A DNA stretch of 64,000 nt from positions 7,130,001-7,194,000 of the forward strand of contig OZ017797.1 of NCBI GenBank assembly GCA_963969395.1. The letters are read 5' to 3'. This document shows positions 11,536 to 64,000 of this stretch, one piece after another. The position numbers were made by a program, and so were the translations under genes. The notes under the pieces are model-generated. The model worked only from the letters and a program-made list of their open reading frames with translations. It did not search any database and was not told where the DNA came from. Position 1 is the first letter of the stretch, and the number at the start of each line of letters is the position of its first letter. The DNA is from Pseudoscleropodium purum. Taxonomy: Eukaryota > Streptophyta > Bryopsida > Hypnales > Brachytheciaceae.

Positions 11536-11779
11536 GATTAAATAGCATTGATCAATGAGCATCGACCAAAGAGAAGCAATCAAAAGAAGGTATATAGTAA
11601 AAACTTGGTTAAGTTAAAGTGATCAAATTGAATTAAGAGAAGAGTATATAGTAAGACCTTAGTTGAGTTAGAGTGATCGAGAGTAAATCAATTAGAAGAA
11701 GATAAGAGCTCGGTTGAGCTAGGAAGCACAACATTCTCCTAAATTTGAGTTAGTTGAGTAGTAGAGAGTTGTAAGGAAG

Positions 11780-16004: not shown

Positions 16005-16244
16005 AACTTGGCCTGAGCCCAGTCAGGAGTCAATGAGTTGTCTATCCATAAGCCCCTTCTAGTGCACTTGTTCTTGAAGTCTGGTGCTTTGGGATGTTTG
16101 CGAGTCATTCAATTATCCCACCATTTGCTTGGATTGTCGGACAAGTGTCTCTAGTAAGTCTCTGAATTCTTTTGAGCATCACGGACAGCACTGGCGCTTC
16201 TCAGAACCTTGGTCGTGTCGCAACGAAGACCAATCAAGCATCGT

Positions 16245-16572: not shown

Positions 16573-16573
16573 G

Positions 16574-16787
16574 TGTTGAATAGCATCATGAATTCATAGT
16601 CAAGTATGCACCTTAAGTACACTAGATTAGCTTGTAACTGATACTAGTACAACTATTAGCTCACAACTGTAACACTAGAGAAGTTAGTGGAGATCGTAAC
16701 AGTAAAGTTGTAAACTGTATATATTCTGATGCTTTAATAACACATCGTATGCAACGTTAATGGCATCACAAATTTGTAATTTTGTCA
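16574..16787 (+). repeat. 3' LTR of the copia element
   Basis: 214 bp, beginning TGTTGAATAGC after the purine-rich tract 'aagcgagggtgtg' and ending TTTTGTCA before the GAAAC target duplicate. It is shorter than the 5' LTR by one internal deletion. Confidence 0.9.
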
Positions 16788-39800: not shown

Positions 39801-42800
39801 TCATGACTCAATTTCCCAGCATTTCATGCTGGGTCGTGAAGCTTACTGAATTGAAAGAACTGGCCTGTTGAAGCGGATGAGGAAGTTGAGTACCTATGAG
39901 CCTGTGCAGGATTCACTGGGAGGAAACTCGAAGACTACAATCATAGCTACTGTCAGCCCTTCTAGCTGGTTTGTCCTTCCTATCCCCGGTTCTGAGTTTA
40001 CCTCCTACACTGTTTGTTGATGACTTTGTTCGGACGTTTGTGTGCTTGTAGGGCTAGCCCTGTTTCTCCTCTGATCCTCGTTTCTGTGGTGTGGCAGCAA
40101 TGCTCTCGAAACCTTGAGTACTCTGAAATTTGCCCAGCGAGCTAAACTCATCCGCAACACGGTGCGCCTCTTTCCCTGTTCTGACTAGCACAGCTGCACC
40201 GTAGAAGCGTTCTTTGAGAGGTTGCACTTGAAGGGTTTACGCTTTGACTGACATTGCGATGTGAACAGGCCGTGATAAATGAGGATGCGTCCGGGGACGT
40301 GAAAGCTCTTCGCGCTCAGATTCAACAGATGAAGGTGCTCGATTTTTCTTTCCCAGTCGAGTGTTGCACGTCGTGGGGTTCTTTTGTTGAGGGTTTTCGC
40401 GTTCGATGAGTCGTATCGGTGTTTGAAATTCGATTCCTTGTGATACAGGAGGAACTGGACCGCCTCCGCCGCCAAAGCATTTCAAGAATCCCACTGTCGC
40501 AGGATGATTTTAACCCAGTCCGCGGGTCGTTTGACTCCTGGGGAGATGCCCACAAGTTTTTTGGGAGCCCCCAAGTTTCCAGCAGAAAGGTAGGGGATTT
40601 CAATCTCTGAGACTGCTGAGTTTGTCCTTGAAGTTGCCGCGGATCTCTATGGCCTTGTGAGTCATCAGGGCACGGGTGTGTGAGTGAGCTGAGCCTTTGT
40701 CGTTGTTTCCAGTTGCGACAAATGGAGGCCGTCGTGGCCGGGGCGTTGAGGCGTGAGCAGGCGGCTGATGTCACCACGAAGCGGCTGGCAGCGGAGATTG
40801 AGCAACTGAGCCGCCTGGTAGGGAGTCTGTCCTCTCATCCTGTGTTTTAGGGGACCTCTAGAAGGGGAAATTCATCGTGCTGAAGCCACGAGCACTGTGC
40901 AGGTTCATCAGCGGGAGGCAGACACGCAGAGCAGCAAGATGGTCCTGCGATTTCGAGAAGACAAAATTCGAAGATTGGAGACTCTGTCGAAGGGATTGCT
41001 GTCCGTCGATTCGTATCTTGCCGACGAGAAGAAGATGTTGACGGAGGAGCTTGAACTGATGCGGGAGAAAGCGGATCGCAATCCTGAGCTGACTAGGTTC
41101 GCCATGGAGAACATTCGTCTGCTCGACCAAATTCGTAGGTACGACCTGTTCGAGTGCCGGTCGTGTCTGGTCCACTTGTACTGCTGACGACGGTTCTATG
41201 CTTTTGGACTGTGCGTGCCCGCATTGATGGGAATTTAAGGATGTAGGACTGGGGTGCGTGCAGCCTGCAGGAATTTCGCGAAGGCGGAGAGAGAGATGTG
41301 ATGCTGGAGGAGATGTCGACTTTACGAGACCAGCTTCTGGAAGCACTGGATGGGAAGATTGCGGTGGATCAAGGCCTTGTCCCTCTGACAACTCCTCAGG
41401 TGTCTTTCTCGCTGACCTTGCGATATTGGACTGGAATCTCAAAGTAACCAGAGCGTTGTGAGAGGTTGGGGAAGGCCGACTAATTCTTTTCTGTTGCTTT
41501 TCAGAAAAAGGCCCTGGCACCAGAGCTCGCCGCGGCAGCCCGTGAGAATGAGCTTCTCCGACTGGAGGTAATAATTGCTATTCTTATTGTGCCGTGCAGA
41601 TCTTTATCAGCCGAGCAGGTGTGCGCGAGTGCAGGATTGGAATTTTTGATTCTGAGGTTTTGTGTTTGTGTTTGTGTTTTTGCAGGCTGATAACTATCGA
41701 TCGGAAGTGGAGGAGCTGCGGAGCAATTTAAGTTCTTCCCTCGAAAGTTATTCGAAAATGGGAAGGTGATTTATCTTGAATGGAGCTTGTAATTCCGCAA
41801 ACTGCGCAGTGAGTTGTGGATTGATATCTTGTGAGTTCTGGTATTTTCGTACCTGAGAATCGGTGTATGCATTGTCGCCTTCCAGGCAAGTGGACGAACT
41901 TCAAGAACTGGTTGAAAAGTTGAAGGTGGAACTGGCTGCGAAGGAAGATAGCACCGTGCCGTCCAGCGTGGAAGCGCTCGAGTTGGAGAATTTTAAACAC
42001 CTGGAGCTTATTGGCGAGCTCAAATTCCAGTTGGAACAGGTACACTTGCTGTGGTCGATTGTAGATTGTACACCGGGTAACTGCCAGGTCGGGAGTGGCA
42101 GACGGGTGCTAACAGATGGAGGCGCATCGTGTGGATCGTTTTGCAGAGTGCCGAGAAGTCGAAGTTGCAGGCGAGTGTCCGTGAGCAACTGGATCTGCAG
42201 TTGAAGGATTCGTTACTGGAGGCAGAAAACCTGCGGTCTGAGCTGGAGGTGCGCAAAGTTCAACCGTTGGCTTTGAAATGCGCATGTTGCGTTGGTGTGT
42301 GTTTGTCAATCCCGTCGGGTTCGCGCAACCAGTAGGTCGATCCTCACTGGATTGGATTGACTTTTTTTATTTTATTTCCTGGGTGCAGGCGACGAAAGAG
42401 GCGTTCGAATCAGCGCGGGCTCTGACGAAGAAACTTCAGAGCAAAGAGGCTGCTCTGGTTGGCGTCCAGGTACATTTTCCGCTCGACGTCGTTGATGTTT
42501 TGAGCAACAAGTGTGTGGTTTAATTTTGCGCTTGGAACTGACTGGCATTTACTGATATGGGATCGTGCCGTTTTGTTGCGTGCCCCAGTATGCAGCAGCC
42601 GTGAAGCAAATCCGACTGGAGACGGAGGAGATGGCAGTGCAACAGAGTCAGTCCTTGACAAACATCCAAGAAATGGCTGTTCTATTTCGCATGAAGGAGA
42701 CCGAGCTGAGAACTCAGCTTGATGACGCCCAGCATATGATTGAGAAGCTCTCGGCGAAGGAAGAGGAGCGGAAGTCATGCCAGTTGGTTAGTGCGCCAAA

Positions 42801-45800
42801 CAGTGTGCGAGCGGAAGACGGCTCGTTCGAACGACTCCAGAAAGCCCAAGAAATCGAGATGCGCCATGCAGAAGAAGTGATGCAACTCCAGTTGGAGCTG
42901 GAGTCGCTTGAGGCAGTCCTTGACGAGGAACGAGCCCAGAAGAAGGAGCTGGAGGAAAAGCTTGGTCAGTTTGAAACGTCGGGAGCACCCCGACCCGATT
43001 GCGCACGAGAGGAGGAACCCACATCCCAAGAGCTGGAGATGACGTCGGCCGTCCATGACGAGGAGAGGTCCCTCGGGCGGGAACTCGAGGCGAAGGTGGC
43101 GAGGCTAACAGATCAGTTGCAAGAGGCTGAAGAGATGATCTCGAATTTGAAGGCGGCTGGCGAGGTGAGAGAGACTACGTACTTCGATGCCGTGTCCAGG
43201 CTGCAGTTGTATTCTCCAGATCAGAAGTCGACACGTCTGAGCGAGCAGCTGGATCAAGACAAGGTTGTGATGGAAGCCTTGGAGAATCAACACCTGTATT
43301 CGATCCGGGAGTTCGATGCATTGCAAGGCGAGCACTCGAAGGCGTTGGAGAAGCTGAAGAGAAGGGAAGAGAGGGAGCGGATCTTGAGGAGAAGGATCGA
43401 TCGCCTGGAACGTGAATTAGTGAAGGAGCAGGAGGTCCGTGAGTTAGAACGAGAGTATGCTGATCTGGAGGATGGAGGCGCGGTGGACGAGGCGGAGAGG
43501 CTGGTTCTTGAGCAGAAGCTGGAGAACGCAAAGCGGGAGCTCGAAGTTACCCGCAGAGAAAATCTGAAACTGAAGGAAGAAGAGTCTGAGAAAGACCTCA
43601 CGCGGTGTCAGGCGGAATCCGAAACTGTCCTAGCTATCACCTCCATGCAGGCAGAGCTTGTGGACTTGAGAGCCGAAGCCGAAGTATCAGATAGAGAGCT
43701 TGCAGCTGCGAAGGGAGCTGTGTCTGAGCTTACAAGTGAGCTTGATAGTATGAGGATGATGCTGAGTGATGTGAAAGATGAGAACTTGCACGTGATTGAG
43801 AAGTACGAGTCCATGTTGGGAGTGAAGGACTCTGAGATCGAAGCTTTGCGAAGGGATCGGCAGAGTGCCACTGTGGAGCTGGTAGATTATCTTGCCGAGG
43901 GCGATCAAGCCCTCAACAAAGCCTGGTTGGAGATGGAGCAGATATCCTGCGGGTACATGCCTTTTTCAGCAAGGTCTAGCCGGGACAGTATGCAGCATTC
44001 CAGGACGAACGAGAAAAGGAAAGCTGTGGAACAACTGAAACAACAATTGCAGCATGCTCAGGAGCTGGCGAAGGACGCGGAGGGCAGAGTTCGAGTGTTG
44101 AGTGAGACAGCGTTTGCAATGTCTTCGGACCCAACCCCGGAGACCCCGCTAGAAGTCCACCGTCTGAGAACACAAGCTGCTGAGGCCCTGGATGTTCTTC
44201 AGGCCGAGGTGGACTCTTCCAGGCAGAAATTTATGGAGTTGGGGAGAAATTCCACGGTGATGTCAGCGGTGATAGCGTGGCTGTCAAAGTCAGTTGAAGC
44301 GAAGGAGATAGCAGAAAGCACTGCCCGCGCCGAGCTGAGGGAAGCAGAAGTTGTCATCAACGAGAAGGAGCGTCTGCTCTCAGGATTGCGGGACGCTCAG
44401 GTGTCTGACCAGTCTTTGCTGAGAGAGTGCGAAGAAGAAGTGAGGCAACTCTCCGAACATCTGGAGGAAACGAAGAGAATGGCCGGTGAAGAAGAAGCAG
44501 CTGTAGCACATCTGGGAAGTGAAGTGGCCAGACTTCAATCGGCACTGGAAGCTCTGGAAACTGAGAGGAAGCTGCTCGTTGAATCGAAGGAGAAGGTCGA
44601 AAGCGAGGCATCGGAAACTTGCTCCGCCATGAATGACCTGAAGGAGGAGCTTGCTATGAGTCGTTCTCTACTGAAGGAAGCTGAAGATAAAGCTGTTGAA
44701 GCCGCTGCGGCCCATCAAAGCCTGGCTATCGTGAAAGAAGAGTGGGAAGTAGAGAAGGCAGGTCTGGAAAGCGATTTGCGGCGCTTGGAAAAAGAAAAGT
44801 CCTCCCTGGAAGCGGAGATGGAGGCATTGAGAGTGGAGCTGGAGCAGGTGCAGGCCCGGTCTGATCAACTGAGCACTCTGGTAAGTGATTCGCCTTGGGA
44901 TAATTGCGAGATGTTGCGTGACTGAGCAGTGCAATTTGGGACTAAGCTCAGTGTGTTTTCACTTCTGTTTCCAGGTCCTCGAAAAGGAGGTCGAGGTTGC
45001 GGCACTTGCAGAGGAGAGCAAGCGTGTGTCGTGCATGAGTGTTGCGAAGGAGGAGGAGCAGCTGGCCGCCCATGAGACGGCACTTGAGCTGCTGAGGTCG
45101 GAGCTGCGACAGAAAGAGTCCCTCTTGAAGCAGGCAGAAAGCGATCATCTTGAATCTGTTGGAGCTTCAGAGGCACGCGAGAATGAGCGCGAGCGTGAAA
45201 TCGCTGAGTTGAAAGAGCGGAGCGAGACTCTCTCTGGCACGAGTGCGAAGAAGGAAGAAGAGCTGGATGAGAGCAGGAGGGAATTGGAGATTCTTCAAAC
45301 AGAATTGCAGAGGAAGCAAGTGCTTCTAGAAGAAGCAGAGACCAAGCTAATCCAGGCAGGGCAAGCTTCCGAGCAACTCATGAAGGAGAAGGACGAGCAC
45401 ATAGCGCTGCTGAAAGAGGAGAGCGAGCGGATGTCCTGCATGAGCGTTCAGAAAGAGGATGGTGAGTTAGCTGAGATGAGGAGAAAGCTTGAGTCGTTGC
45501 AAGGTGAGATTCGGGCGAAGGAGAGGACCTTGGAAGAAGTGGAGAAGCAGCTCTCTGAGTCGGTCCAAGCTTCTCAAGCGCTTGGTGAGGAAAAGGACGA
45601 AGCAATCTGTGAGCTGAATGCAGAGGTGAATAGGTTATCATCCATGTATGCTGAAAACAGCGGGGAGCTGTCTCGACTTCGCGAAGAGCTGCAGGCAATT
45701 CAAGCCGAATTGGAGAGCCGAGAAGTTCTTCTGCAGGAATCCCAGACCCGGGTCATTGAGGCTGATGCGGCCCTGGAGAAACTGGCAGGGGAGAAAGAGG

Positions 45801-48800
45801 CAATCCAATCGGAGTTGGAGAGCAGAGAGTCAGTTCTGGAGGATTTCCGGTCCCGTATGGTCGAGGCAGACGCGGCCTTGGAGGCAGTTGCTGGGGAGAA
45901 GGCTTTTCTTGAATCCCGGCTGGAGAGTGCCTCGATAGACTCCAGCGTGTCCGCTTCAAGGCTTTGTGAAGCCGAGGAGGCCCAATCCGTTCTGCAGGAG
46001 AAGGTCGCTGTGATGGAGGCCCGGATCGTGGAATATGAGGATAGGGAGCAGTCTTTGATGATGGAGTTGGAGGAGCTGTCCACTGCCCGGAATATGAGCG
46101 AGGAAGACGTGATTCACTTGCAGAACGAAGTGGTGGAGCTGAGGAGAGAGCGCGACAGTCTGAACTTGGAGGTCTCAACGATGGATGCGCAATCAGCAAT
46201 CAGCGAGAGACTGCAATTTATCCAGTCGATGTGTACGGACACTGACGACCGAATCTCCTCCATGCAGTCGGAGATAGAGGACTTGACGTCAGCGAAGGAA
46301 GCTTTGGAGACTGAAGTTCGGTCGATCGAAGCTAGGGCCGTCCAGCTATCTCTGGCGCTGGGCGAGAGAGAAGAGAGCCTGGCAGCTGCTCGTGAGGATC
46401 TGGAACGCGTGCAGATGGATCTGATGGATGTCACCGAACGCGCCTCCGCACCACGCGAAGAATTGACGGCTGCCAAATTTAAGCTCCAGGCCGCTGAGGA
46501 GAACATCGACAGCATGAGCAAGAGTATCGATGAGTTGAAGAAATCCAGAGCTGACAAGGAGGAAGAGCATGTTTTCCTCCAAGAGCGCTTGGAGAAAGCG
46601 AGAGTGAACCGGATGGAAGCCCAGGGGAAGCTGGATGCGCTGATTGTGGTGATGCACGAATTTTCAAGGTCGGAAGAGAGTTGGGGCCATGAAAGGGATA
46701 TTATCGTATCGGAGATCGAAGCGATGAGGTCCCAACTGACAGAAAAGGGAGGCGAGGTGGCGGCACTGCAAGAAGAAAAAAGTTCTCTTGAGAACCGGCT
46801 CCGGGGTGTAGTTGCCGAGAAGGATGCCGCATTGGCAAGTATTGCATCGTTGACGAATCGAAGCGATAATTTGGAAGCCGGCGGTAAATGTGCAGGCAAG
46901 GATGCTTCCTCCGTGAGTGACGAGGTGGAATTGGCCAAAGCTCGGGCCGCGTTAGCTGGCGCGGAGGAGAAGGTGAAGCTATTGGTGGACGCCAATGCTA
47001 CCATGACCGTGGAGTGGGAAGGGGAGAGATCGAGGTTGAATGCAGACAAAGAACTGCTGCAATTAGAGATTTCTCGACTGGAGAAACCTGTGGATAGCGT
47101 CTCGGACGAGAAGAGGTCCAGCTCAGAGGATGGTGAAAGCGGAAAGGACCATGTTATGGATGAGCTGAAGCAGGTAGTGAAGAGCACCAGCGCCGAGTGC
47201 GAAAAGTTGCGTTGTAAACTTCGAGAGCGGGACAACACAATTTTGTCCGTGAAGCTGCAATTGGAGGAAGCCATGGTGCACTACAAGGAGACGGAGATCG
47301 AAATGGAGAAGACGATCAGAGAGAAAGATGAAGCCATTTCCCGAATCGTGGAACTGGAAGCCGAGGTGACGGATGCCGAAGAGGAGATCATTAGGCGTCG
47401 GGAGCAAGTGGAGACGTTCGAGCTCGAGTTGGAGAATGTCGTGGTGAGGTTGACGGACTCTGAAGCTCAATGGAGGTCACAGAGAGAGCAGCTAGAGAAT
47501 GAGAGAGATGATGCCCGGGCGGAGGCCATCGAGGTAGAGTGCGAATTGAGGGAGCAGCTAAAGCGTGAAAGAGATGCCGCTCGGGCAGAGGCCGATGAGT
47601 ATGCTGCAGTGAGAAAGAGGATAGATGAAACTCGGAATGCATCTGCAAAGGACAAAGATTGTGGACAGGAGAGTTGTAGAGAAGCGGAGGAGTGCGTGAG
47701 CCTGTCTTTGGAAAGCATAGCCGCTTTTGCTTTGGCGCAGGAGGAAGTTGATCTCACGAAGAGCCACTGTGAGAAAGAGATGGAGACTTTGGCCGTGGAC
47801 ATGAAATCCCTGAGAGCGGATCTAAGCGGTAGCTTCTTTGAGTTTCCTGTAGTTGCAATTCAAGAAGACGTGAAGTCTATCATTGAAGCGCACAGATCTG
47901 AAATCTCTAGCTTCGCTCTGAAGGTGGAAGCCTTGGAAAGCGTTGTAGCGGAGAGCACGAGTAAAATCTCAACGCTAGAGGCCGCGCTAGAGAATGCACA
48001 GGAAATTCGGCATAAGTCTTTAGAAGAGGGGCAGTGTGTCGATTCGGTAAACTCTGAGCAGGCAGCTGATCTAGCATCTGCTTGTGCAGATCTTGAAAAC
48101 ACTAGGGTGGAGCTTGAGATGTCTGAAGCTGCCGTGTCTCAACTCCTAGCCGCGGTGAGTGAGAGAGATGCTACTTTGTCCGTTTTAGAGTCAGCAATGA
48201 AAGAAACGCAAGAACGTTTGGCCGAGATTGAGGCGGAACACGAGGCCAATCGACAGGAGGCCGATGCCGCGAAGCTGGTACTGATCGATGTGGATCAGTT
48301 GCGCAGTCAGGTACTCGGTCTTCAAAGGCAGGTGGCACAGAAGGAGGAACTCATCAAAGGCTTTGAATACGACATCAATCTCCTGGAAGAGACGGGAACC
48401 GTGGAGGCTGAGAGCGCGGCAAGGAGCATCGGTCAGCTTCAGAAGGAATTAGATGAGAAGAGTGAGGAGTTGAGAATGTTGCACGAGCGGACTGCCACTC
48501 TCGAGTCGGAACTGCGTGAAAAACTTGAAGACGGCATTGCCAGTGACGCTGTGAACGCGACAGAAGCTGCGGTGGAGAACGCAAATTTGCGTGCGAAAGT
48601 TGCTGGGCTGGAGGCTCGTTTGGAGTCGCTGGACGCACTGGCCAAGGAACGAGAATTTGTTGTGATGTCACTGAAGTCGGAGCTGGAAACAGCTCGATCA
48701 GAACGCGAGGCGGATGCTACCAAAGCCCGCCAGGTAACTACAGTGGTTCGCATGTGCGCTCTCTCCCTTCACCCTGCCCTTCCATTCATCTAATCTGATC

Positions 48801-51800
48801 AAATGTAATCAGGTACGTTTGAAGCGCATCCTTGTAGTCTCGGGAGAATGCTATGCGAGTGGTCCATGTTGAAGGAGCTAGGATCTGACGGTGTTTTGAC
48901 CGTGGAATGCAGTCTGCAGCGGTTTTCCAGACCAATGCTGAAAGCAGGGCGGAGGAGATGATGGCCAACGAGCAGCGATTGAAGACGAGGATTTCCGGCC
49001 TTGAGGATCAAGTGAGCCGTTCGTCTTTTCTGGAAACTTCCAGTCGTTTGTCGTGAAGCATCCTGTCAATTTCGAGGACCAGAATCTAACACGAAGTTTT
49101 TGACAGGTGACTGGGCTTGAGAAGAAAGTGGAGGAGCAGTATGAATTGCGAGAGCAAGTCGAGAAGGAACTCAGAAAATCGAGGCAGCTTGGGTCGACGT
49201 TCTCGGCATTGGAGTCCAGAGAAGCACAACCTGCGAAGCAGTCTTTGGAAAGGTATGGGTCTGCGCGTGTGTGTGCACCAGTGTTGCTGGCCGGGTTGGG
49301 CATTTGTTTGGTGTCGAAAGTGGAGTCGTGAAGCTCGACTGATCCTGATTTTTGTATTTGAATCATTTTAGGAAGCTAAGAGTGGTGGAAGCGGAGCTAT
49401 CAATGGCGCATCAAAGACTAGAGAATCTGCAATCGCAATGTGACGAGAAGGATAGACAGGTAAGAGCACTAGCGAAGTGACGCGGTTTTGTAGCAGCAGT
49501 TTTATTGCAGACGTTATAGGAGCCCTCTCGGTTTTGGGGCGATATTTAGTGGAGACCGTCACATGTGCTCCCCGCCTCCGAATCCGTGCTGACGATGCGA
49601 GAGTGATGGTAACTACTGTGCAGATCAAGTCTCTGAACGGCCATATCAACGAAGTGACATTAGCAGCTGGACGGCAGACGACCGAAAGTCAGCAGAAGGT
49701 GCGGTCCATTATCTCTCAATAGCTAGATGACCCGTGAAAGGGCGTCAAACGTGTCTGAGTACTTCGTTAGCATTGGTTCCCTTGAGAGTAGGGATGATGA
49801 CACTCGGTGTTGTTGTCCTAGTTTGGTCTGAAACAGCTGTGGTGTATCTCACGACTGACATTGTTTTACACAGGTGAAGGGACTGGAGGCTTTGCTAGAG
49901 AACGGCAGTGGCAAGTCTCTAGCCAGAACATCTAGTGTGGGACCATTCGTGGACTTCAGAAACGCAGACGCCGCCGCTAGGCGCCGAATCGAGGAGCTTG
50001 AAGCTCTTGCCGCAGGGCGCCTGAAGGAAGTGAGTGGCAGCCCTTGCGAGCCGTGCTTTGACTGCCCATGATTTCCGATTTCTTTGGTGGAGTGGGTTTT
50101 CTTGCGGGAGCTCACGTGGAACTTGGTGCGTGGGTGGATGCAGGTGTACGGTTTGAATGCGAAAGTTGCCGAGCTTGAGAGTGATTTGCACGACGTGGTT
50201 CGTGGATTGGTTCGCTGCAATCTGGATGTTCAGAATATGAAGGTGAATCTCTCGACAGTCTGTGTCAACTTTGCCGTGGACGATGATGTATGTTGAGTTG
50301 ACTGCAGGTGGGAATCTTCTAACGTTTGTGCGTCGGATGTGAGCAGTTGAACCATCCACAAGTGAAGGAGATTGTAGCCACTGTTCGGCGACAGAGCATC
50401 GAGAACCAGAGACCGGTTAGTTCCTGTCAAGTTTGTGCGTTTTAGCTCACGTGCGGTGACTTGTTCGTCGAGGCGGGACGTTTGCTTCATTTTCTTACCT
50501 TCACAGCATGGCACTTGGCAGGATACTGTCCAAGATGCTGAATTGGAAAGATTGCGGACGAAGCTGAACGAGTTTATCGGCGAGAGAGACAGGTACCATC
50601 ATTCAATTGTTGGGTTTTTAAGACTAGCGGCCGTATGAATCTGGCTTGAGAGGTAGCCTACCGTTGGGTGACCCAACACATGGGTCGAAGCCACTTATTT
50701 CCTAATCTGATTGACAGCTTCCCTTTTTCAACAGCTGGCTAGAGGAAATTACAAGACAGCAGGCCGAGATTGTTGCTGCTCGTGCCTCTGCGGAGAAGAT
50801 GCGTTTCCGCGACGATACCTTGACAGCGGAGAATGAGAAACTCAAGGTATTTACGTTTTCATGCGGATTTGTGTGTGCTGTAGATTTTCTTCGGGACACC
50901 GTATTGCCGTTTGGTTGTTGATGACCGCCAGCATTTTACTGAAATTCTTTTTCGATGGTGCAGACTCAAGGTGCAGGGCTTCAGAAACGGTTGGGAGAAT
51001 TGGAGCAAGAAATCAAGAAGCTATCTGGGCAGCAGAACCTTCAGCAACGGATTCATCACCATGCTAAGATCAAGGTATTGCGCACTATCGGGTTGGAGAG
51101 TTTGTCTTGCCGGGTTATGCATTTAAGTTATTGTGCGACTCGACTTGATCATCATTCCGGTTACTGACGGTCGCCCTGCTCGCAGGACGAGAACAATTCG
51201 CTGAGGCTGCAGGTGGAGGACCTGAGCACGAAGATGAGACGTGCGGAAATGATGTTTGGGCGAGTTAAAGGTGAGCTTGAGCGTTACAGGATAGCGGCAG
51301 GCAAAACTCCGTTCCCTAATATCGACGAAGAGCAGCGACTCCGAAGCAAATTGCAGGTACTGTGGTGTGGGAGAGGCAGAATTGGTTGTTTCGAGTTAAT
51401 TGTGAAGTCTGGCCGAGTGACGCACAAGGCCGAGGAATCACGCTCAGTGAGCAGAGGTGGAAAGTTAAAGATGAACTTAGCGGTTTCCGGAGGACCAAGG
51501 ACTGACTGTTATCGCTTGACTGTGTGAAACAGGAAGCTGAGGAAAGTAAGATCCAGCTCGCGCAGCAGTTTATCACGCTGAGTAATGCGATTCAGAAGGT
51601 ACCGGGTGGTCGCATCTCGTCGAAGTTTGTGTTTGGACATGGCGGTCGTTTTCATCGGTTGATACTAATTGAGTGCCTTGTATGTGAACAGGCAGCAGGC
51701 AGCGCGAACTCCGTGAGGCAAGTTGATGAGTCTGCTGCAATGGATGCAGTCCGGCAGTTGGAGTCACGGCTACGAACTGCAGAAGACGAAGTGTCTGAAT

Positions 51801-52044
51801 TTCGACTGAAGGTATTATATTTGTCGAATTTTTCTTGACGTGGCTGTTTCCTGTCATCTGGTGCTGTAACGGTCGCGTCCGTCGGTCGCTGTCAAACTCA
51901 CAAGGTGATAACTTGGTAACGCAGACGAGAATATCTGGGGAAAAGAGGCGTCTGAGTGAATTGCGAACGTTCCATACTCCGGTGAAGTCGAATCCAGCGG
52001 CAGCCTCTCAGCCATTTCTGAGCAGCCCTGCCATATATCGGTGA
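36831..52044 (+). CDS. POK: POK-type kinesin-12 motor protein, 37 exons
   Basis: A plus-end-type kinesin-12 of the plant phragmoplast-orienting group. Its relatives act at the preprophase band, cortical division zone and phragmoplast to guide the cell plate. Residues 1-261 (exon 1) form a basic, Pro/Ser-rich extension ending FWLDHNVQ. The motor spans about 262-600: VLIRTRP; P-loop [10 protein letters not shown] across exons 3-4; switch I NRESSRSH; switch [11 protein letters not shown]; then [18 protein letters not shown] and [22 protein letters not shown] just after the motor, and GLPMVENC in it, are POK-like. Nearly all the rest is coiled coil, with exon 22 (42589-44880) and exon 23 (44975-48733) very long and the others short. 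The last exon is 51925-52044. All junctions are GT-AG and phases agree, giving 10,530 nt and 3,509 residues, longer than the Arabidopsis homologues. No break is seen. Confidence 0.93.
45014..45826 (+). repeat. ~68-residue internal repeats in the kinesin coiled coil
   Basis: Within exon 23, units begin [15 protein letters not shown] (45014), [15 protein letters not shown] (45218), [15 protein letters not shown] (45419) and [15 protein letters not shown] (45623). Spacings are 68, 67 and 68 residues. Each continues with an ELE.L..EL..KE.LLEEAE-like heptad stretch. Similarity at DNA level is lower than at protein level, so these look like old internal duplications kept by selection on the coil. 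Confidence 0.75.
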
Positions 52045-52710
52045 TAGATTAAGCAGGATATAAACGTACAGTAGGAAGTGATCTCCTGTGGTGAAATGCT
52101 GGCACTGATCGGGAGGTTTCTGTACAGGATTATGTGTACATTATGCAATTTGATTCATTCCTGTGATTGCTGCCTTGGGAGGCCACGCACAGCAATTTGT
52201 CTCTATAAAATTCTAACTCTGAATTGTCACATACAACAGTCATCCTCGGGTCGCTTTGGACGTTTTATGTTTACTTGTATTTGAGCAACTTCAAAGATTG
52301 GGTACTCCCAAAGAGCATCATGAAAGTTATTGTGGTTCTTCACACTAAGATTGGGGAGCGTACTCATGGCGATACGTCATATGCCAAGCTCTTGAGGGAC
52401 AACGTTTTGTTTTATAATGCTCAATACATACCAAGATCAAATGCTTTGACTTTTGGGACAGTGAATCAGCTGAATTGCAAACTTTTGTAGAGAATTTCAA
52501 TGTTCCACTAACGCCTAAATGCCGAAGGCCTTTTTATAGCTTAGAAATTTGCCCTGAATTGAACAAAAAGTCAACATTTTGTTAAGCTGCATCAATTTTT
52601 TTTGAATTGTAACCGTACAAATTCAAACTAGATTGTTAGAGATCACATAGGAAAAGAAAACACAACAATATCACTTATGGATTGGAAGTGCAAAAGATTT
52701 AGATTTTTGA
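52045..52710 (+). other. 3' flank / probable 3' UTR of the kinesin gene, inner end of left arm
   Basis: Follows the TGA at 52042-52044 and is included in full in the palindrome arm. A plus-strand frame at 52224-52490 (88 codons) is unrecognised, and its identical mirror copy adds no independent support. The arm stops at 52710, where the mirrored sequences diverge. Confidence 0.6.
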
Positions 52711-52749
52711 ACCCATTAGGTAATGACTAAAAAATTTAAATCTTTTGCA
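52689..52749. repeat. Hairpin at the left arm/hinge boundary
   Basis: 52689-52708 pairs with 52730-52749 at 19 of 20 positions, with a 21-bp loop containing the arm end at 52710. The 52730-52749 sequence also recurs in the same orientation at 54927-54946 with one mismatch, just inside the right arm. The hinge is therefore flanked by 20-bp near-direct repeats. Confidence 0.85.
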
Positions 52750-52849
52750 GTTTTATATATTCATCTGTGATAATAATCCACAATATATACTACTCTACAT
52801 TTTGTAGAGAGATATCTAGTTGACCTAGCCACATTGTAAGCATCTCACA

Positions 52850-53844
52850 TGAGAAGTCTTATGCATTTGCCAATGAGCCTCTTGGACTTGTACCAAAGGG
52901 AAAGAGGTAAAGATGTAGCTTACTACTGCTACACGGATAGAAAGAGTCATCCTCGACAGGAGACAGATTGTACTAAAGATATCTGCCAATTCTATATATG
53001 GATCATATGGAACTCGTAACTCATCATATCTACAGTTTATAGAGGGTGCAGAGTCCACTACAGCAATAGATGGATCCATGTTGATGAAAGCATCAAGTAT
53101 CATATCATCTAGATATCCAGTTAGCATAGTGTATGGTGACACAGACTCGTGCATGTTTAGAGTTCATGTTCCTCAGGACTATAAATCATGCAAGTCTTTA
53201 GCTGTGCTCATATCAGGTGATGTTTCAAAGGAGTTTCCAGCACCGGTAAAACTTGAGTTCGAGAGTGTGTTTGAAACCTTGTTGATAACAGAGAAGAGAT
53301 ACATTGGAATGATAGCAAGAGAGCGCAAGATGATATACAAGGGAGTTGTTGTGTCCAGGAGAGACAGTTGTGCTTTCCTAAAGAGAACATACTCTATGTT
53401 AGTTGGAATGATTATAGACTCAGCATCACAAGATGATATAGTACAAGCTATCAGGAGCGATCTCCTATTGCTAGCAAGAGGTCAAGTCCCACTAGATGAA
53501 CTGGTGATCACAAAGACACTTGGAAAGGGAACTCGAGTGCTAGTACACCTCTGTTGGTGTGTAGTAATAGACTCAAAGATCTAGGTATAGAAGCTAAGCC
53601 CGGTGATGAACTTGACTTTGTATTCATTAGAACAAAAAAGATGTTCAAACTACAAGGACATTAGATGTGTCCACCACACTTGGTACTACCTCACAACCTA
53701 GAGATAGATTATTTGTACTATATAGAGAATCATATCTTCAATCCTATCGATCAAATTCTACAACTCTTGGGACAGAAACCACTTGTGAAGGAATTTGCTG
53801 ATGCAATTAAGGGACTAGCTATGGCAGGAATTACATCATTCTAA
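52850..53844 (+). pseudogene. Family B DNA polymerase fragment, virus-like (broken)
   Basis: Covers the palm and thumb region of a replicative family B DNA polymerase. Visible in order are LDRRQIVLKISANSIYG (the conserved K..xNS.YG motif), SIVYGDTDS (the catalytic DTD motif C), a KLEFE motif, KRYIGM and KGVVVSRRDS. In another frame come PGDELDFVFI and IDYLYYIENH near the C-terminus, ending at TAA 53842-53844. The exonuclease domain and most of the fingers are missing, so it is 5'-truncated. Breaks are a likely frameshift near 52940, a frame change near 53535 and an in-frame TAG near 53660. The DTD and KxxxNSxYG forms fit eukaryotic or large-virus polymerases rather than protein-primed types. 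Viral origin is inferred from the neighbouring nuclease and the lack of introns. Confidence 0.72.
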
Positions 53845-53907
53845 AAGAAAAGTTTTTAAAAGTACTTGTTAGAGCATGTTGATGAAACTGTCTAGCATGT
53901 CAAGCTC

Positions 53908-54813
53908 CTAATGAGCTTCAAGAGAGAACCACTTCATCTTCTCTTTCAAGTACGAACAATCATATATTTGTCTTAGCCTCTCTATGTTAAGTCCTTGATT
54001 ACTATAGAACATGGTGTTCTCTAGTTTCTCATGACTCCTTATCTCTGATAGTGCTATCTTAGGTCCCACTCTTGCAATCTTCTTATTGTAATCCGTACCC
54101 GTGAGGATAGATATGTCTATCATCTAGGAATGAGTTATGTTAAAGTGCTCATATATGTTTTTAAATGTTATAACATCTGCGTACTCTTCTACCATATTAA
54201 TGTCCTTTATGAGATAGGGACATCCAAACAACAGACTGTCATAGTCAACACTAAACACTGCAGCAACCTCTCTATTCTTGCACATATGTGCACATGTAAC
54301 ATCGGCTTTATATTCTCCTACTACACAAACATCAAGAGCCGAAGGGATCTCTGATATGTTCAATTCAACACATTCAAAGAGAGCATTATAGTATTGCTTT
54401 GCATTCTCTGTGTTTGATAGATCTCTCTTGAATATGCTTCCCATTGTTACTAGCCTCTCTTTCATTCCGAATTTCTTCTTTGCTCTCCTTTCTAGTTCCA
54501 ATTGCATCTCTGGAATTGTCTTTCCATCAAATACAAACACACAATAGAACCTGTCTTTCAAGACATCCATTGCCTTCTTGATTGTATCAATACAATGTGA
54601 AGCATAGTCTGCTCTTTCAAATCCCTCATGTCTCAGAACATCTCTAGCTTCTACCAGAGAGAACAGCTTCTCTACACGGCAGCGTATAGTGCATTTGAAC
54701 AAAATGAACATTAATGCATTAACATCAACTGCGATCCTCATCCGTTCTATTTTGTGCACTGGAACTTCTTGTATTAGAGGAGATAACAGTGTTGACATAC
54801 CAACTGGAGACAT
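53908..54813 (-). pseudogene. FEN1/XPG-family nuclease, virus-like, with one in-frame stop
   Basis: About 301 codons, the usual size of viral FEN1-like nucleases, on the minus strand with ATG at 54813. The N-terminal half shows GMSTLL, then RIAVDVNAL (first metal-binding Asp), VFVFDGKTIPE (second Asp) and a basic ERRAKKK stretch. GEYKADVTCAHM and VDYDSLLFG supply further acidic residues. A TAG at 54124-54126 interrupts the frame. Directly after it, in the same frame, comes IDISILTGTDYNKKI, then RVGPKIAL, which is the helix-hairpin-helix region with its conserved Asp. Such nucleases remove flaps during replication and repair. In FEN1 the middle acidic motif is EAE; here one position appears to be Lys. 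The stop makes it a pseudogene as read. A host FEN1 would normally have introns, so a viral source is more likely. Confidence 0.75.
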
Positions 54814-54924
54814 GACAGCTATATTGTTAGTTTATACAACTCAAACAATCTTATTGTTAATATGAATGTAATACCATTACTCTACGAGATAGTAGTAATA
54901 GTAATACAACATATTAGAAAGAAC

Positions 54925-57900
54925 TCAAAAATCTAAATCTTTTGCACTTCCAATCCATAAGTGATATTGTTGTGTTTTCTTTTCCTATGTGATCTCTAAC
55001 AATCTAGTTTGAATTTGTACGGTTACAATTCAAAAAAAATTGATGCAGCTTAACAAAATGTTGACTTTTTGTTCAATTCAGGGCAAATTTCTAAGCTATA
55101 AAAAGGCCTTCGGCATTTAGGCGTTAGTGGAACATTGAAATTCTCTACAAAAGTTTGCAATTCAGCTGATTCACTGTCCCAAAAGTCAAAGCATTTGATC
55201 TTGGTATGTATTGAGCATTATAAAACAAAACGTTGTCCCTCAAGAGCTTGGCATATGACGTATCGCCATGAGTACGCTCCCCAATCTTAGTGTGAAGAAC
55301 CACAATAACTTTCATGATGCTCTTTGGGAGTACCCAATCTTTGAAGTTGCTCAAATACAAGTAAACATAAAACGTCCAAAGCGACCCGAGGATGACTGTT
55401 GTATGTGACAATTCAGAGTTAGAATTTTATAGAGACAAATTGCTGTGCGTGGCCTCCCAAGGCAGCAATCACAGGAATGAATCAAATTGCATAATGTACA
55501 CATAATCCTGTACAGAAACCTCCCGATCAGTGCCAGCATTTCACCACAGGAGATCACTTCCTACTGTACGTTTATATCCTGCTTAATCTATCACCGATAT
55601 ATGGCAGGGCTGCTCAGAAATGGCTGAGAGGCTGCCGCTGGATTCGACTTCACCGGAGTATGGAACGTTCGCAATTCACTCAGACGCCTCTTTTCCCCAG
55701 ATATTCTCGTCTGCGTTACCAAGTTATCACCTTGTGAGTTTGACAGCGACCGACGGACGCGACCGTTACAGCACCAGATGACAGGAAACAGCCACGTCAA
55801 GAAAAATTCGACAAATATAATACCTTCAGTCGAAATTCAGACACTTCGTCTTCTGCAGTTCGTAGCCGTGACTCCAACTGCCGGACTGCATCCATTGCAG
55901 CAGACTCATCAACTTGCCTCACGGAGTTCGCGCTGCCTGCTGCCTGTTCACATACAAGGCACTCAATTAGTATCAACCGATGAAAACGACCGCCATGTCC
56001 AAACACAAACTTCGACGAGATGCGACCACCCGGTACCTTCTGAATCGCATTACTCAGCGTGATAAACTGCTGCGCGAGCTGGATCTTACTTTCCTCAGCT
56101 TCCTGTTTCACACAGTCAAGCGATAACAGTCAGTCCTTGGTCCTCCGGAAACCGCTAAGTTCATCTTTAACTTTCCACCTCTGCTCACTGAGCGTGATTC
56201 CTCGGCCTTGTGCGTCACTCGGCCAGACTTCACAATTAACTCGAAACAACCAATTCTGCCTCTCCCACACCACAGTACCTGCAATTTGCTTCGGAGTCGC
56301 TGCTCTTCGTCGATATTAGGGAACGGAGTTTTGCCTGCCGCTATCCTGTAACGCTCAAGCTCACCTTTAACTCGCCCAAACATCATTTCCGCACGTCTCA
56401 TCTTCGTGCTCAGGTCCTCCACCTGCAGCCTCAGCGAATTGTTCTCGTCCTGCGAGCAGGGCGACCGTCAGTAACCGGAATGATGATCAAGTCGAGTCGC
56501 ACAATAACTTAAATGCATAACCCGGCAAGACAAACTCTCCAACCCGATAGTGCGCAATACCTTGATCTTAGCATGGTGATGAATCCGTTGCTGAAGGTTC
56601 TGCTGCCCAGATAGCTTCTTGATTTCTTGCTCCAATTCTCCCAACCGTTTCTGAAGCCCTGCACCTTGAGTCTGCACCATCGAAAAAGAATTTCAGTAAA
56701 ATGCTGGCGGTCATCAACAACCAAACGGCAATACGGTGTCCCGAAGAAAATCTACAGCACACACAAATCCGCATGAAAACGTAAATACCTTGAGTTTCTC
56801 ATTCTCCGCTGTCAAGGTATCGTCGCGGAAACGCATCTTCTCCGCAGAGGCACGAGCAGCAACAATCTCGGCCTGCTGTCTTGTAATTTCCTCTAGCCAG
56901 CTGTTGAAAAAGGGAAGCTGTCAATCAGATTAGGAAATAAGTGGCTTCGACCCATGTGTTGGGTCACCCAACGGTAGGCTACCTCTCAAGCCAGATTCAT
57001 ACGGCCGCTAGTCTTAAAAACCCAACAATTGAATGATGGTACCTGTCTCTCTCGCCGATAAACTCGTTCAGCTTCGTCCGCAATCTTTCCAATTCAGCAT
57101 CTTGGACAGTATCCTGCCAAGTGCCATGCTGTGAAGGTAAGAAAATGAAGCAAACGTCCCGCCTCGACGAACAAGTCACCGCACGTGAGCTAAAACGCAC
57201 AAACTTGACAGGAACTAACCGGTCTCTGGTTCTCGATGCTCTGTCGCCGAACAGTGGCTACAATCTCCTTCACTTGTGGATGGTTCAACTGCTCACATCC
57301 GACGCACAAACGTTAGAAGATTCCCACCTGCAGTCAACTCAACATACATCATCGTCCACGGCAAAGTTGACACAGACTGTCGAGAGATTCACCTTCATAT
57401 TCTGAACATCCAGATTGCAGCGAACCAATCCACGAACCACGTCGTGCAAATCACTCTCAAGCTCGGCAACTTTCGCATTCAAACCGTACACCTGCATCCA
57501 CCCACGCACCAAGTTCCACGTGAGCTCCCGCAAGAAAACCCACTCCACCAAAGAAATCGGAAATCATGGGCAGTCAAAGCACGGCTCGCAAGGGCTGCCA
57601 CTCACTTCCTTCAGGCGCCCTGCGGCAAGAGCTTCAAGCTCCTCGATTCGGCGCCTAGCGGCGGCGTCTGCGTTTCTGAAGTCCACGAATGGTCCCACAC
57701 TAGATGTTCTGGCTAGAGACTTGCCACTGCCGTTCTCTAGCAAAGCCTCCAGTCCCTTCACCTGTGTAAAACAATGTCAGTCGTGAGATACACCACAGCT
57801 GTTTCAGACCAAACTAGGACAACAACACCGAGTGTCATCATCCCTACTCTCAAGGGAACCAATGCTAACGAAGTACTCAGACACGTTTGACGCCCTTTCA

Positions 57901-60900
57901 CGGGTCATCTAGCTATTGAGAGATAATGGACCGCACCTTCTGCTGACTTTCGGTCGTCTGCCGTCCAGCTGCTAATGTCACTTCGTTGATATGGCCGTTC
58001 AGAGACTTGATCTGCACAGTAGTTACCATCACTCTCGCATCGTCAGCACGGATTCGGAGGCGGGGAGCACATGTGACGGTCTCCACTAAATATCGCCCCA
58101 AAACCGAGAGGGCTCCTATAACGTCTGCAATAAAACTGCTGCTACAAAACCGCGTCACTTCGCTAGTGCTCTTACCTGTCTATCCTTCTCGTCACATTGC
58201 GATTGCAGATTCTCTAGTCTTTGATGCGCCATTGATAGCTCCGCTTCCACCACTCTTAGCTTCCTAAAATGATTCAAATACAAAAATCAGGATCAGTCGA
58301 GCTTCACGACTCCACTTTCGACACCAAACAAATGCCCAACCCGGCCAGCAACACTGGTGCACACACACGCGCAGACCCATACCTTTCCAAAGACTGCTTC
58401 GCAGGTTGTGCTTCTCTGGACTCCAATGCCGAGAACGTCGACCCAAGCTGCCTCGATTTTCTGAGTTCCTTCTCGACTTGCTCTCGCAATTCATACTGCT
58501 CCTCCACTTTCTTCTCAAGCCCAGTCACCTGTCAAAAACTTCGTGTTAGATTCTGGTCCTCGAAATTGACAGGATGCTTCACGACAAACGACTGGAAGTT
58601 TCCAGAAAAGACGAACGGCTCACTTGATCCTCAAGGCCGGAAATCCTCGTCTTCAATCGCTGCTCGTTGGCCATCATCTCCTCCGCCCTGCTTTCAGCAT
58701 TGGTCTGGAAAACCGCTGCAGACTGCATTCCACGGTCAAAACACCGTCAGATCCTAGCTCCTTCAACATGGACCACTCGCATAGCATTCTCCCGAGACTA
58801 CAAGGATGCGCTTCAAACGTACCTGATTACATTTGATCAGATTAGATGAATGGAAGGGCAGGGTGAAGGGAGAGAGCGCACATGCGAACCACTGTAGTTA
58901 CCTGGCGGGCTTTGGTAGCATCCGCCTCGCGTTCTGATCGAGCTGTTTCCAGCTCCGACTTCAGTGACATCACAACAAATTCTCGTTCCTTGGCCAGTGC
59001 GTCCAGCGACTCCAAACGAGCCTCCAGCCCAGCAACTTTCGCACGCAAATTTGCGTTCTCCACCGCAGCTTCTGTCGCGTTCACAGCGTCACTGGCAATG
59101 CCGTCTTCAAGTTTTTCACGCAGTTCCGACTCGAGAGTGGCAGTCCGCTCGTGCAACATTCTCAACTCCTCACTCTTCTCATCTAATTCCTTCTGAAGCT
59201 GACCGATGCTCCTTGCCGCGCTCTCAGCCTCCACGGTTCCCGTCTCTTCCAGGAGATTGATGTCGTATTCAAAGCCTTTGATGAGTTCCTCCTTCTGTGC
59301 CACCTGCCTTTGAAGACCGAGTACCTGACTGCGCAACTGATCCACATCGATCAGTACCAGCTTCGCGGCATCGGCCTCCTGTCGATTGGCCTCGTGTTCC
59401 GCCTCAATCTCGGCCAAACGTTCTTGCGTTTCTTTCATTGCTGACTCTAAAACGGACAAAGTAGCATCTCTCTCACTCACCGCGGCTAGGAGTTGAGACA
59501 CGGCAGCTTCAGACATCTCAAGCTCCACCCTAGTGTTTTCAAGATCTGCACAAGCAGATGCTAGATCAGCTGCCTGCTCAGAGTTTACCGAATCGACACA
59601 CTGCCCCTCTTCTAAAGACTTATGCCGAATTTCCTGTGCATTCTCTAGCGCGGCCTCTAGCGTTGAGATTTTACTCGTGCTCTCCGCTACAACGCTTTCC
59701 AAGGCTTCCACCTTCAGAGCGAAGCTAGAGATTTCAGATCTGTGCGCTTCAATGATAGACTTCACGTCTTCTTGAATTGCAACTACAGGAAACTCAAAGA
59801 AGCTACCGCTTAGATCCGCTCTCAGGGATTTCATGTCCACGGCCAAAGTCTCCATCTCTTTCTCACAGTGGCTCTTCGTGAGATCAACTTCCTCCTGCGC
59901 CAAAGCAAAAGCGGCTATGCTTTCCAAAGACAGGCTCACGCACTCCTCCGCTTCTCTACAACTCTCCTGTCCACAATCTTTGTCCTTTGCAGATGCATTC
60001 CGAGTTTCATCTATCCTCTTTCTCACTGCAGCATACTCATCGGCCTCTGCCCGAGCGGCATCTCTTTCACGCTTTAGCTGCTCCCTCAATTCGCACTCTA
60101 CCTCGATGGCCTCCGCCCGGGCATCATCTCTCTCATTCTCTAGCTGCTCTCTCTGTGACCTCCATTGAGCTTCAGAGTCCGTCAACCTCACCACGACATT
60201 CTCCAACTCGAGCTCGAACGTCTCCACTTGCTCCCGACGCCTAATGATCTCCTCTTCGGCATCCGTCACCTCGGCTTCCAGTTCCACGATTCGGGAAATG
60301 GCTTCATCTTTCTCTCTGATCGTCTTCTCCATTTCGATCTCCGTCTCCTTGTAGTGCACCATGGCTTCCTCCAATTGCAGCTTCACGGACAAAATTGTGT
60401 TGTCCCGCTCTCGAAGTTTACAACGCAACTTTTCGCACTCGGCGCTGGTGCTCTTCACTACCTGCTTCAGCTCATCCATAACATGGTCCTTTCCGCTTTC
60501 ACCATCCTCTGAGCTGGACCTCTTCTCGTCCGAGACGCTATCCACAGGTTTCTCCAGTCGAGAAATCTCTAATTGCAGCAGTTCTTTGTCTGCATTCAAC
60601 CTCGATCTCTCCCCTTCCCACTCCACGGTCATGGTAGCATTGGCGTCCACCAATAGCTTCACCTTCTCCTCCGCGCCAGCTAACGCGGCCCGAGCTTTGG
60701 CCAATTCCACCTCGTCACTCACGGAGGAAGCATCCTTGCCTGCACATTTACCGCCGGCTTCCAAATTATCGCTTCGATTCGTCAACGATGCAATACTTGC
60801 CAATGCGGCATCCTTCTCGGCAACTACACCCCGGAGCCGGTTCTCAAGAGAACTTTTTTCTTCTTGCAGTGCCGCCACCTCGCCTCCCTTTTCTGTCAGT

Positions 60901-63900
60901 TGGGACCTCATCGCTTCGATCTCCGATACGATAATATCCCTTTCATGGCCCCAACTCTCTTCCGACCTTGAAAATTCGTGCATCACCACAATCAGCGCAT
61001 CCAGCTTCCCCTGGGCTTCCATCCGGTTCACTCTCGCTTTCTCCAAGCGCTCTTGGAGGAAAACATGCTCTTCCTCCTTGTCAGCTCTGGATTTCTTCAA
61101 CTCATCGATACTCTTGCTCATGCTGTCGATGTTCTCCTCAGCGGCCTGGAGCTTAAATTTGGCAGCCGTCAATTCTTCGCGTGGTGCGGAGGCGCGTTCG
61201 GTGACATCCATCAGATCCATCTGCACGCGTTCCAGATCCTCACGAGCAGCTGCCAGGCTCTCTTCTCTCTCGCCCAGCGCCAGAGATAGCTGGACGGCCC
61301 TAGCTTCGATCGACCGAACTTCAGTCTCCAAAGCTTCCTTCGCTGACGTCAAGTCCTCTATCTCCGACTGCATGGAGGAGATTCGGTCGTCAGTGTCCGT
61401 ACACATCGACTGGATAAATTGCAGTCTCTCGCTGATTGCTGATTGCGCATCCATCGTTGAGACCTCCAAGTTCAGACTGTCGCGCTCTCTCCTCAGCTCC
61501 ACCACTTCGTTCTGCAAGTGAATCACGTCTTCCTCGCTCATATTCCGGGCAGTGGACAGCTCCTCCAACTCCATCATCAAAGACTGCTCCCTATCCTCAT
61601 ATTCCACGATCCGGGCCTCCATCACAGCGACCTTCTCCTGCAGAACGGATTGGGCCTCCTCGGCTTCACAAAGCCTTGAAGCGGACACGCTGGAGTCTAT
61701 CGAGGCACTCTCCAGCCGGGATTCAAGAAAAGCCTTCTCCCCAGCAACTGCCTCCAAGGCCGCGTCTGCCTCGACCATACGGGACCGGAAATCCTCCAGA
61801 ACTGACTCTCTGCTCTCCAACTCCGATTGGATTGCCTCTTTCTCCCCTGCCAGTTTCTCCAGGGCCGCATCAGCCTCAATGACCCGGGTCTGGGATTCCT
61901 GCAGAAGAACTTCTCGGCTCTCCAATTCGGCTTGAATTGCCTGCAGCTCTTCGCGAAGTCGAGACAGCTCCCCGCTGTTTTCAGCATACATGGATGATAA
62001 CCTATTCACCTCTGCATTCAGCTCACAGATTGCTTCGTCCTTTTCCTCACCAAGCGCTTGAGAAGCTTGGACCGACTCAGAGAGCTGCTTCTCCACTTCT
62101 TCCAAGGTCCTCTCCTTCGCCCGAATCTCACCTTGCAACGACTCAAGCTTTCTCCTCATCTCAGCTAACTCACCATCCTCTTTCTGAACGCTCATGCAGG
62201 ACATCCGCTCGCTCTCCTCTTTCAGCAGCGCTATGTGCTCGTCCTTCTCCTTCATGAGTTGCTCGGAAGCTTGCCCTGCCTGGATTAGCTTGGTCTCTGC
62301 TTCTTCTAGAAGCACTTGCTTCCTCTGCAATTCTGTTTGAAGAATCTCCAATTCCCTCCTGCTCTCATCCAGCTCTTCTTCCTTCTTCGCACTCGTGCCA
62401 GAGAGAGTCTCGCTCCGCTCTTTCAACTCAGCGATTTCACGCTCGCGCTCATTCTCGCGTGCCTCTGAAGCTCCAACAGATTCAAGATGATCGCTTTCTG
62501 CCTGCTTCAAGAGGGACTCTTTCTGTCGCAGCTCCGACCTCAGCAGCTCAAGTGCCGTCTCATGGGCGGCCAGCTGCTCCTCCTCCTTCGCAACACTCAT
62601 GCACGACACACGCTTGCTCTCCTCTGCAAGTGCCGCAACCTCGACCTCCTTTTCGAGGACCTGGAAACAGAAGTGAAAACACACTGAGCTTAGTCCCAAA
62701 TTGCACTGCTCAGTCACGCAACATCTCGCAATTATCCCAAGGCGAATCACTTACCAGAGTGCTCAGTTGATCAGACCGGGCCTGCACCTGCTCCAGCTCC
62801 ACTCTCAATGCCTCCATCTCCGCTTCCAGGGAGGACTTTTCTTTTTCCAAGCGCCGCAAATCGCTTTCCAGACCTGCCTTCTCTACTTCCCACTCTTCTT
62901 TCACGATAGCCAGGCTTTGATGGGCCGCAGCGGCTTCAACAGCTTTATCTTCAGCTTCCTTCAGTAGAGAACGACTCATAGCAAGCTCCTCCTTCAGGTC
63001 ATTCATGGCGGAGCAAGTTTCCGATGCCTCGCTTTCGACCTTCTCCTTCGATTCAACGAGCAGCTTCCTCTCAGTTTCCAGAGCTTCCAGTGCCGATTGA
63101 AGTCTGGCCACTTCACTTCCCAGATGTGCTACAGCTGCTTCTTCTTCACCGGCCATTCTCTTCGTTTCCTCCAGATGTTCGGAGAGTTGCCTCACTTCTT
63201 CTTCGCACTCTCTCAGCAAAGACTGGTCAGACACCTGAGCGTCCCGCAATCCTGAGAGCAGACGCTCCTTCTCGTTGATGACAACTTCTGCTTCCCTCAG
63301 CTCGGCGCGGGCAGTGCTTTCTGCTATCTCCTTCGCTTCAACTGACTTTGACAGCCACGCTATCACCGCTGACATCACCGTGGAATTTCTCCCCAACTCC
63401 ATAAATTTCTGCCTGGAAGAGTCCACCTCGGCCTGAAGAACATCCAGGGCCTCAGCAGCTTGTGTTCTCAGACGGTGGACTTCTAGCGGGGTCTCCGGGG
63501 TTGGGTCCGAAGACATTGCAAACGCTGTCTCACTCAACACTCGAACTCTGCCCTCCGCGTCCTTCGCCAGCTCCTGAGCATGCTGCAATTGTTGTTTCAG
63601 TTGTTCCACAGCTTTCCTTTTCTCGTTCGTCCTGGAATGCTGCATACTGTCCCGGCTAGACCTTGCTGAAAAAGGCATGTACCCGCAGGATATCTGCTCC
63701 ATCTCCAACCAGGCTTTGTTGAGGGCTTGATCGCCCTCGGCAAGATAATCTACCAGCTCCACAGTGGCACTCTGCCGATCCCTTCGCAAAGCTTCGATCT
63801 CAGAGTCCTTCACTCCCAACATGGACTCGTACTTCTCAATCACGTGCAAGTTCTCATCTTTCACATCACTCAGCATCATCCTCATACTATCAAGCTCACT

Positions 63901-64000
63901 TGTAAGCTCAGACACAGCTCCCTTCGCAGCTGCAAGCTCTCTATCTGATACTTCGGCTTCGGCTCTCAAGTCCACAAGCTCTGCCTGCATGGAGGTGATA
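54925..64000 (-). repeat. Right arm of the >9-kb inverted repeat
   Basis: Mirror of 43635-52710, running off the window end. Introns and 3' flank match as well as exons do. No difference was found at the places compared directly, namely the arm ends, two introns, the 3' flank and the outer edge. I have not checked every base. Confidence 0.97.
55591..64000 (-). CDS. POK: Second copy of the POK-type kinesin-12 gene, 3' part
   Basis: Minus-strand mirror of exons 37 back to 22: last exon 55710-55591, exon 23 at 62660-58902, and exon 22 from 62755 to the window edge. It encodes the coiled-coil half and the C-terminus ending [12 protein letters not shown], with splice sites and reading frame intact. 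The motor domain, if present, lies beyond 64000. Because the window cuts it, I cannot say whether this copy is complete or a 5'-truncated duplicate lacking the motor. It converges with the first copy across the viral hinge. Confidence 0.88.

Follow-up and report, generated by a model that had tools for sequence, protein, structure and literature searches.

The 64,000-nucleotide stretch of DNA analyzed here (the window) contains a long palindrome with perfectly matching arms, which carry two copies, in opposite orientation, of the 3′ part of a moss kinesin gene and are separated by a short hinge that holds two broken genes, one for a family-B DNA polymerase and one for a FEN1/XPG-like nuclease. 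The palindrome is a true and striking feature of the sequence. As to its origin, the reading put first here, tentatively and as something short of probable, is that a real inverted duplication took place in the moss nucleus when a broken chromosome was repaired by fold-back close to an old insert.

The visible part of the left arm lies at 43,635-52,710 on the plus strand, and the right arm, at 54,925-64,000 in minus orientation, is its reverse complement. By base-by-base comparison, 9,076 of 9,076 positions of 43,635-52,710 are complementary to 64,000-54,925, with a coordinate sum of 107,635, 0 mismatches and 0 gaps. An earlier, sequence-only reading of this DNA had proposed reverse-complement arms of this length and constant sum, without net indel between them, and the alignment bears it out on both counts. 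That reading had called the palindrome near-perfect, but within the window it is perfect; it had also taken 43,635 as a palindrome boundary, a position that merely mirrors the last base of the window. Since the right arm is cut off there, 9,076 bp is a minimum for the arm length. Arm symmetry by chance is a non-issue at this length, and the window contains no N. The inner edges of the arms are sharp, as the 20 bases past each edge are mutually dissimilar and the blocks wholly inside the hinge agree only at chance level (45-61 of 200 positions per block). The hinge itself (52,711-54,924; 2,214 bp, 37.3% GC) is single-copy as far as seen within the 64-kb window. A blastn search of the hinge against 1-52,710 returned two matches only, one to the arm tip (E = 0.008) and the other of 20 nt (E = 0.34), and tblastx against the same range returned nothing at E 0.01.

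Each arm holds the 3′ part of an intron-containing gene for a long coiled-coil kinesin, possibly a kinesin-12. The left copy, of about 3,300 a.a., extends from start to stop over 36,831-52,044 (plus strand; stop codon 52,042-52,044) and begins outside the visible arm. The Ceratodon protein P0052 aligns to it by tblastn in blocks covering residues 1-3317 of 3318 over 36,831-52,041, with the stop codon next, and the P. patens protein P0053 matches it as well. Two motor-domain pieces of the left copy match Pfam Kinesin, and the two longest blocks (771 and 1,145 residues) are free of stops. The right copy, of which only the 3′ part is present, lies at 55,591-64,000 on the minus strand, where it is matched by tblastn as the mirror of the left copy and is cut by the window end. 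The two copies are thus placed tail to tail, their stop codons ending at 52,044 and 55,591. In a protein search with the left-arm open frame, with scoring limited to the 7,976 candidates that had the most words in common with it, there were 5 matches: a 3,318-a.a. kinesin of Ceratodon purpureus (68% identity, covering 93% of the scored part), a kinesin of Physcomitrium patens with 3,449 a.a. (55% identity), and three Sphagnum proteins (34-36%). Judged by this gene, the window is nearer to Ceratodon than to Physcomitrium. Because a moss kinesin gene with introns lies in the arms, the window is moss nuclear sequence, and an organelle genome, a virus genome and viral terminal repeats were ruled out. 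An rRNA or tRNA palindrome was also ruled out, with 0 Rfam matches at gathering score and 0 ARAGORN predictions.

The remainder of the window has several features of its own. A Copia-type LTR retrotransposon occupies 11,128-16,787; its ends (11,128-11,302 and 16,613-16,787) are 93% alike over 175 bp, and between them are Pol_BBD and RVT_2 pieces, the coding pieces being spread over several short frames. Within this element is a tandem repeat of 34 bp in 5.2 copies (11,360-11,537). A B3 DNA-binding domain (Pfam E = 1.1e-11) is encoded in a frame on the minus strand at 18,796-19,494, which is probably part of a plant transcription-factor gene. In addition, a dispersed repeat of about 420 bp is present in three copies (1,857-2,263, 7,197-7,625, and 22,167-22,592), which are 80-82% alike, one of them inverted.

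The hinge was described by the sequence-only reading as a unique spacer of 2.2 kb. Its size stands at 2,214 bp, but it is not just unique DNA, as it contains two broken giant-virus-like genes and a 22/25 hairpin at its left edge. The first gene is a family-B DNA polymerase fragment (52,743-53,841, plus strand), which reaches from about motif A to the C-terminus and is interrupted by a frame change and stops. Its open piece at 52,919-53,581 matches Pfam DNA_pol_B (E = 9.6e-39). Among the 39 protein matches of the polymerase piece, the best two are from P. patens (60 and 42% identity) and the others are at 26-40%; by tblastn, the P. patens protein P0013 matches the fragment at 60 and 76% over two pieces. 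A tree of 26 rows was built from 16 of these 39 matches, the window sequence, and 9 viral rows that were left when 81 polymerases (from 86 loci) were thinned at 55% identity. In this tree, the hinge polymerase groups with the two P. patens rows in a clade (100/99) that falls outside a 14-row group containing the rows named Pol delta and the viral row L009. The fork that joins this clade with the viral rows L007 and L008 has no resolved order, and the other 6 of the 9 viral rows lie across a branch with 100/98 support. The closest solved structures by sequence are those of eukaryotic Pol delta. On these sequence grounds, the hinge polymerase is not an ordinary copy of Pol delta.

The second hinge gene, which faces the polymerase, is a FEN1/XPG-like nuclease gene with in-frame stops (53,872-54,813, minus strand), collinear with its relatives over 314 codons. 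Its open piece at 54,127-54,831 on the same strand matches Pfam XPG_I (E = 2e-11) and has 12 protein matches that are 58-70% identical to it (best 70%), 6 of the 12 being named P. patens; by tblastn, these proteins (P0001-P0012) match the hinge nuclease at 55-68%. Both hinge genes look dead, to judge from the frame change in the polymerase and the in-frame stops in the nuclease. No relative of the nuclease was confirmed in viral contigs, either among 2 or among 458 matched stretches, and none was found near viral polymerases in 86 loci (best E = 2.0). Five of the matching proteins (P0001-P0005; 314-332 a.a., 61-70% identical to the nuclease piece), one of which is on a contig of 28,401 bases, may represent either free viruses related to this one or insertions in other mosses.

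The nearest relatives of both hinge genes are therefore moss proteins of this kind, with P. patens leading for the polymerase and providing 6 of the 12 nuclease matches. These comparisons link the hinge with genes of P. patens but by themselves are no proof of a virus; the viral reading comes from the literature. Giant-virus inserts have been described in the P. patens genome, and a survey connected one P. patens sequence in its polymerase tree with the extended putative Pithoviridae (PMC5294986). Strong methylation has been reported for the viral fraction of that genome (PMC12344493). Because the hinge genes are nearest to P. patens proteins and P. patens carries giant-virus inserts, the hinge is likely of giant-virus origin, on the assumption that the matched P. 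patens proteins lie within the published inserts. The hinge resembles those inserts in that its PolB and FEN1/XPG-like genes have their closest relatives in P. patens. It differs from them in being just a 2.2-kb fragment with two broken genes at the centre of a palindrome, and in its host, which is another moss and nearer to Ceratodon by its kinesin.

The content of the hinge also bears on whether the locus is an artefact of sequencing or assembly. A chimeric fold-back molecule, or a wrong join in the assembly graph, could have put a second, inverted arm after the insert, and polishing with reads from the one true arm would then have equalised the arms; the true locus would consist of the kinesin gene, the insert and something else. 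This is a possibility to be taken seriously, although on the whole a doubtful one. Polishing of a duplicated stretch would be expected to yield identity as perfect as that seen over 9,076 bp, introns included, and a palindrome that extends to the window edge is compatible with a contig-end artefact. Amplified DNA is reported to yield many palindromic reads (PMC6218980), and fold-back artefact reads have been described, including one with about 2 kb between its halves (PMC12870357). The spacer had been offered earlier as an argument against a hairpin-read artefact, which in light of that published read is too strong. Like such reads, the moss locus is a mirror copy of one locus, and extra sequence is possible between the halves of a read (PMC12870357); the extra sequence in the moss locus, however, is a coherent coding sequence of two collinear genes related to moss proteins, which counts against an artefact, as does a window without N. 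Furthermore, the two junctions differ in their flanks, which means that each would have had to be supported separately during assembly.

At the left arm/hinge edge, the last 25 bases of the left arm (t; 52,686-52,710, plus strand) form one strand of an imperfect hairpin stem with an inverted copy just inside the hinge (t′; 52,728-52,752, plus strand), which begins 17 nt from the arm edge. The two are reverse complementary at 22 of 25 sites. Using a 25-mer query of arm bases only, 0 of 2,000 dinucleotide shuffles of the hinge reached 22 on either strand (maximum 20), and within the first 60 bases of shuffled hinges the best match to t was 17. As a single strand, t and t′ fold at -16.7 kcal/mol (z = -6.6), a value equalled by 0 of 200 shuffles. 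A direct repeat (52,726-52,752 and 54,923-54,949, 89%) is also present; since the right arm tip mirrors the left, it is one fact with the hairpin and not a second one, and its interpretation as a target-site duplication was ruled out for this reason. Within the spacer, the inverted repeat is located at the near end. Beyond the arm edges as they stand today, no run of bases is common to the two sides.

The left arm edge also lies within about 45 bp of the point where polymerase similarity starts, which three alignments place at 52,743 (L009), 52,755 (L007), and 52,707 (L008). By the two alignments that start at 52,743 and 52,755, t′ overlaps codons of the polymerase. Similarity that crosses into the left arm was not found beyond the one alignment of the three (L008) that starts at 52,707; a 19-a.a. 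piece at the edge was equalled by 927 of 1,000 shuffles and a 26-a.a. piece at the arm tip by 24 of 500. This closeness, together with arms that both stop at the same base, is what would be expected if two identical broken ends had been bridged by a decayed viral fragment from another site, which acted as filler. Equal ends could come from the sister chromatids of one broken chromosome or from the cut centre of a fresh palindrome, and the filler, by breaking the symmetry, would stabilise the palindrome. Capture of this kind is nonetheless unlikely. The arm tip t resembles t′ in the hinge at 22 of 25 sites, so it seems to have met such DNA earlier, and the divergence of t from t′ while the arms are identical is left without explanation. 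Capture explains the coincidence of arm edge and insert better than fold-back does, and it explains the contrast in age and the hairpin worse.

Fold-back repair, the origin tentatively preferred here, would involve three steps. First, at some remote time, a fragment of a giant virus would have become integrated about 0.7 kb downstream of the kinesin gene. When end joining involves snap-back synthesis, a short stretch of the insert is copied in inverted form where insert meets host, and the t/t′ hairpin at the left junction could be such a copy. Second, the inserted genes would have decayed. Third, after a long interval, the chromosome would have broken to the right of this fragment and the end would have been resected; the free strand would then have bent back on itself, started synthesis from the hairpin at the insert edge, and copied outward through the kinesin region. 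The loop of 2.2 kb would thereby stay single-copy as the hinge, leaving two kinesin copies tail to tail. Human inverted duplications provide a comparison: in the junctions sequenced in one report, 21 of 21 had a single-copy spacer, of 766-70,466 bp (median 3,428), and these spacers were explained by fold-back of a resected end (PMC3907307). In yeast, fold-back inversions are reported to arise via hairpins, with loops of up to many thousands of nt when MRE11 and SAE2 are intact (PMC7467729), and divergent, widely spaced inverted repeats are described as potent in long single-stranded DNA (PMC10164571).

Several observations argue for fold-back in the moss locus, among them the identical arms beside broken hinge genes and the two junctions with different flanks. 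Its spacer of 2,214 bp falls inside the range of the human junctions, with arms of at least 9,076 bp as inverted copies around a single-copy spacer of the roughly 0.8-70 kb class, and its hairpin at the arm/spacer edge is far beyond chance. It shares with human inv-dup chromosomes and yeast fold-back inversions the inverted copies, the single-copy spacer and the short inverted sequence at the boundary (PMC3907307, PMC7467729). In contrast to those duplications, it has decayed giant-virus-like genes in the spacer, shows no terminal deletion or dicentric within the window, and has its inverted sequence at the near end. The arm edge near the start of polymerase similarity stands against fold-back, for which it is a coincidence that is not predicted unless the hairpin directs it. 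In geometry, the window fits the class of fold-back inverted duplications; a fold-back origin of the moss locus is plausible and unproved.

The arms and the hinge also differ in apparent age. The arms show 0 differences while the hinge genes are broken and t and t′ differ at 3 of 25 sites; thus, the palindrome is younger than the insert or has been homogenised. Provided that the arms have been resolved correctly and have escaped homogenisation, the palindrome looks much younger than the insert. With no change observed across 9,076 aligned sites, the number of changes has a 95% upper limit of about 3. With a substitution rate near 1e-8 per site and year, the palindrome would be less than about 17,000 years old, again under these two conditions.

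Homogenisation would apply to an old palindrome whose arms have been kept identical by arm-to-arm gene conversion while the hinge was free to decay. Gene-conversion palindromes of sex chromosomes have long, near-identical, gene-bearing arms and a unique spacer, and the moss locus too has long gene-bearing arms around a unique spacer. Identical arms, broken hinge genes and a diverged t/t′ pair correspond to the pattern described for mammalian sex-chromosome palindromes (PMC6790999). The moss locus, seen in one window, differs from these in showing no sign of age, sex linkage or conversion, and gene conversion must leave 0 differences in 9 kb, introns included, which makes this a distinctly improbable explanation. 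A recent inverted duplication, gene conversion and an assembly join had all been listed in the sequence-only reading; the list was the right one.

Each ingredient of the locus is known, and the combination may be new: judged by titles and the starts of abstracts, no description of a viral spacer in a palindrome was found among the open-licence papers listed. If the locus is real, it links endogenous giant-virus-like DNA in land plants with the birth of long palindromes by break repair. The decayed spacer genes and the pristine arms would then give the order of events, and the edge hairpin would allow an origin by fold-back to be tested base by base in plants. Should the locus turn out to be an artefact, it would serve as a useful warning against trusting a palindrome because its spacer is unique. 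At its most speculative, and with little expectation that it holds, the finding could mean that pieces of giant-virus DNA lodged in moss genomes are prone to breakage or serve as filler, and in this way seed and then stabilise gene-bearing palindromes. A scrap of viral DNA would here have come to form the asymmetric middle of a newly made mirror duplication of a kinesin gene, whose tail-to-tail copies would be able to make double-stranded RNA.
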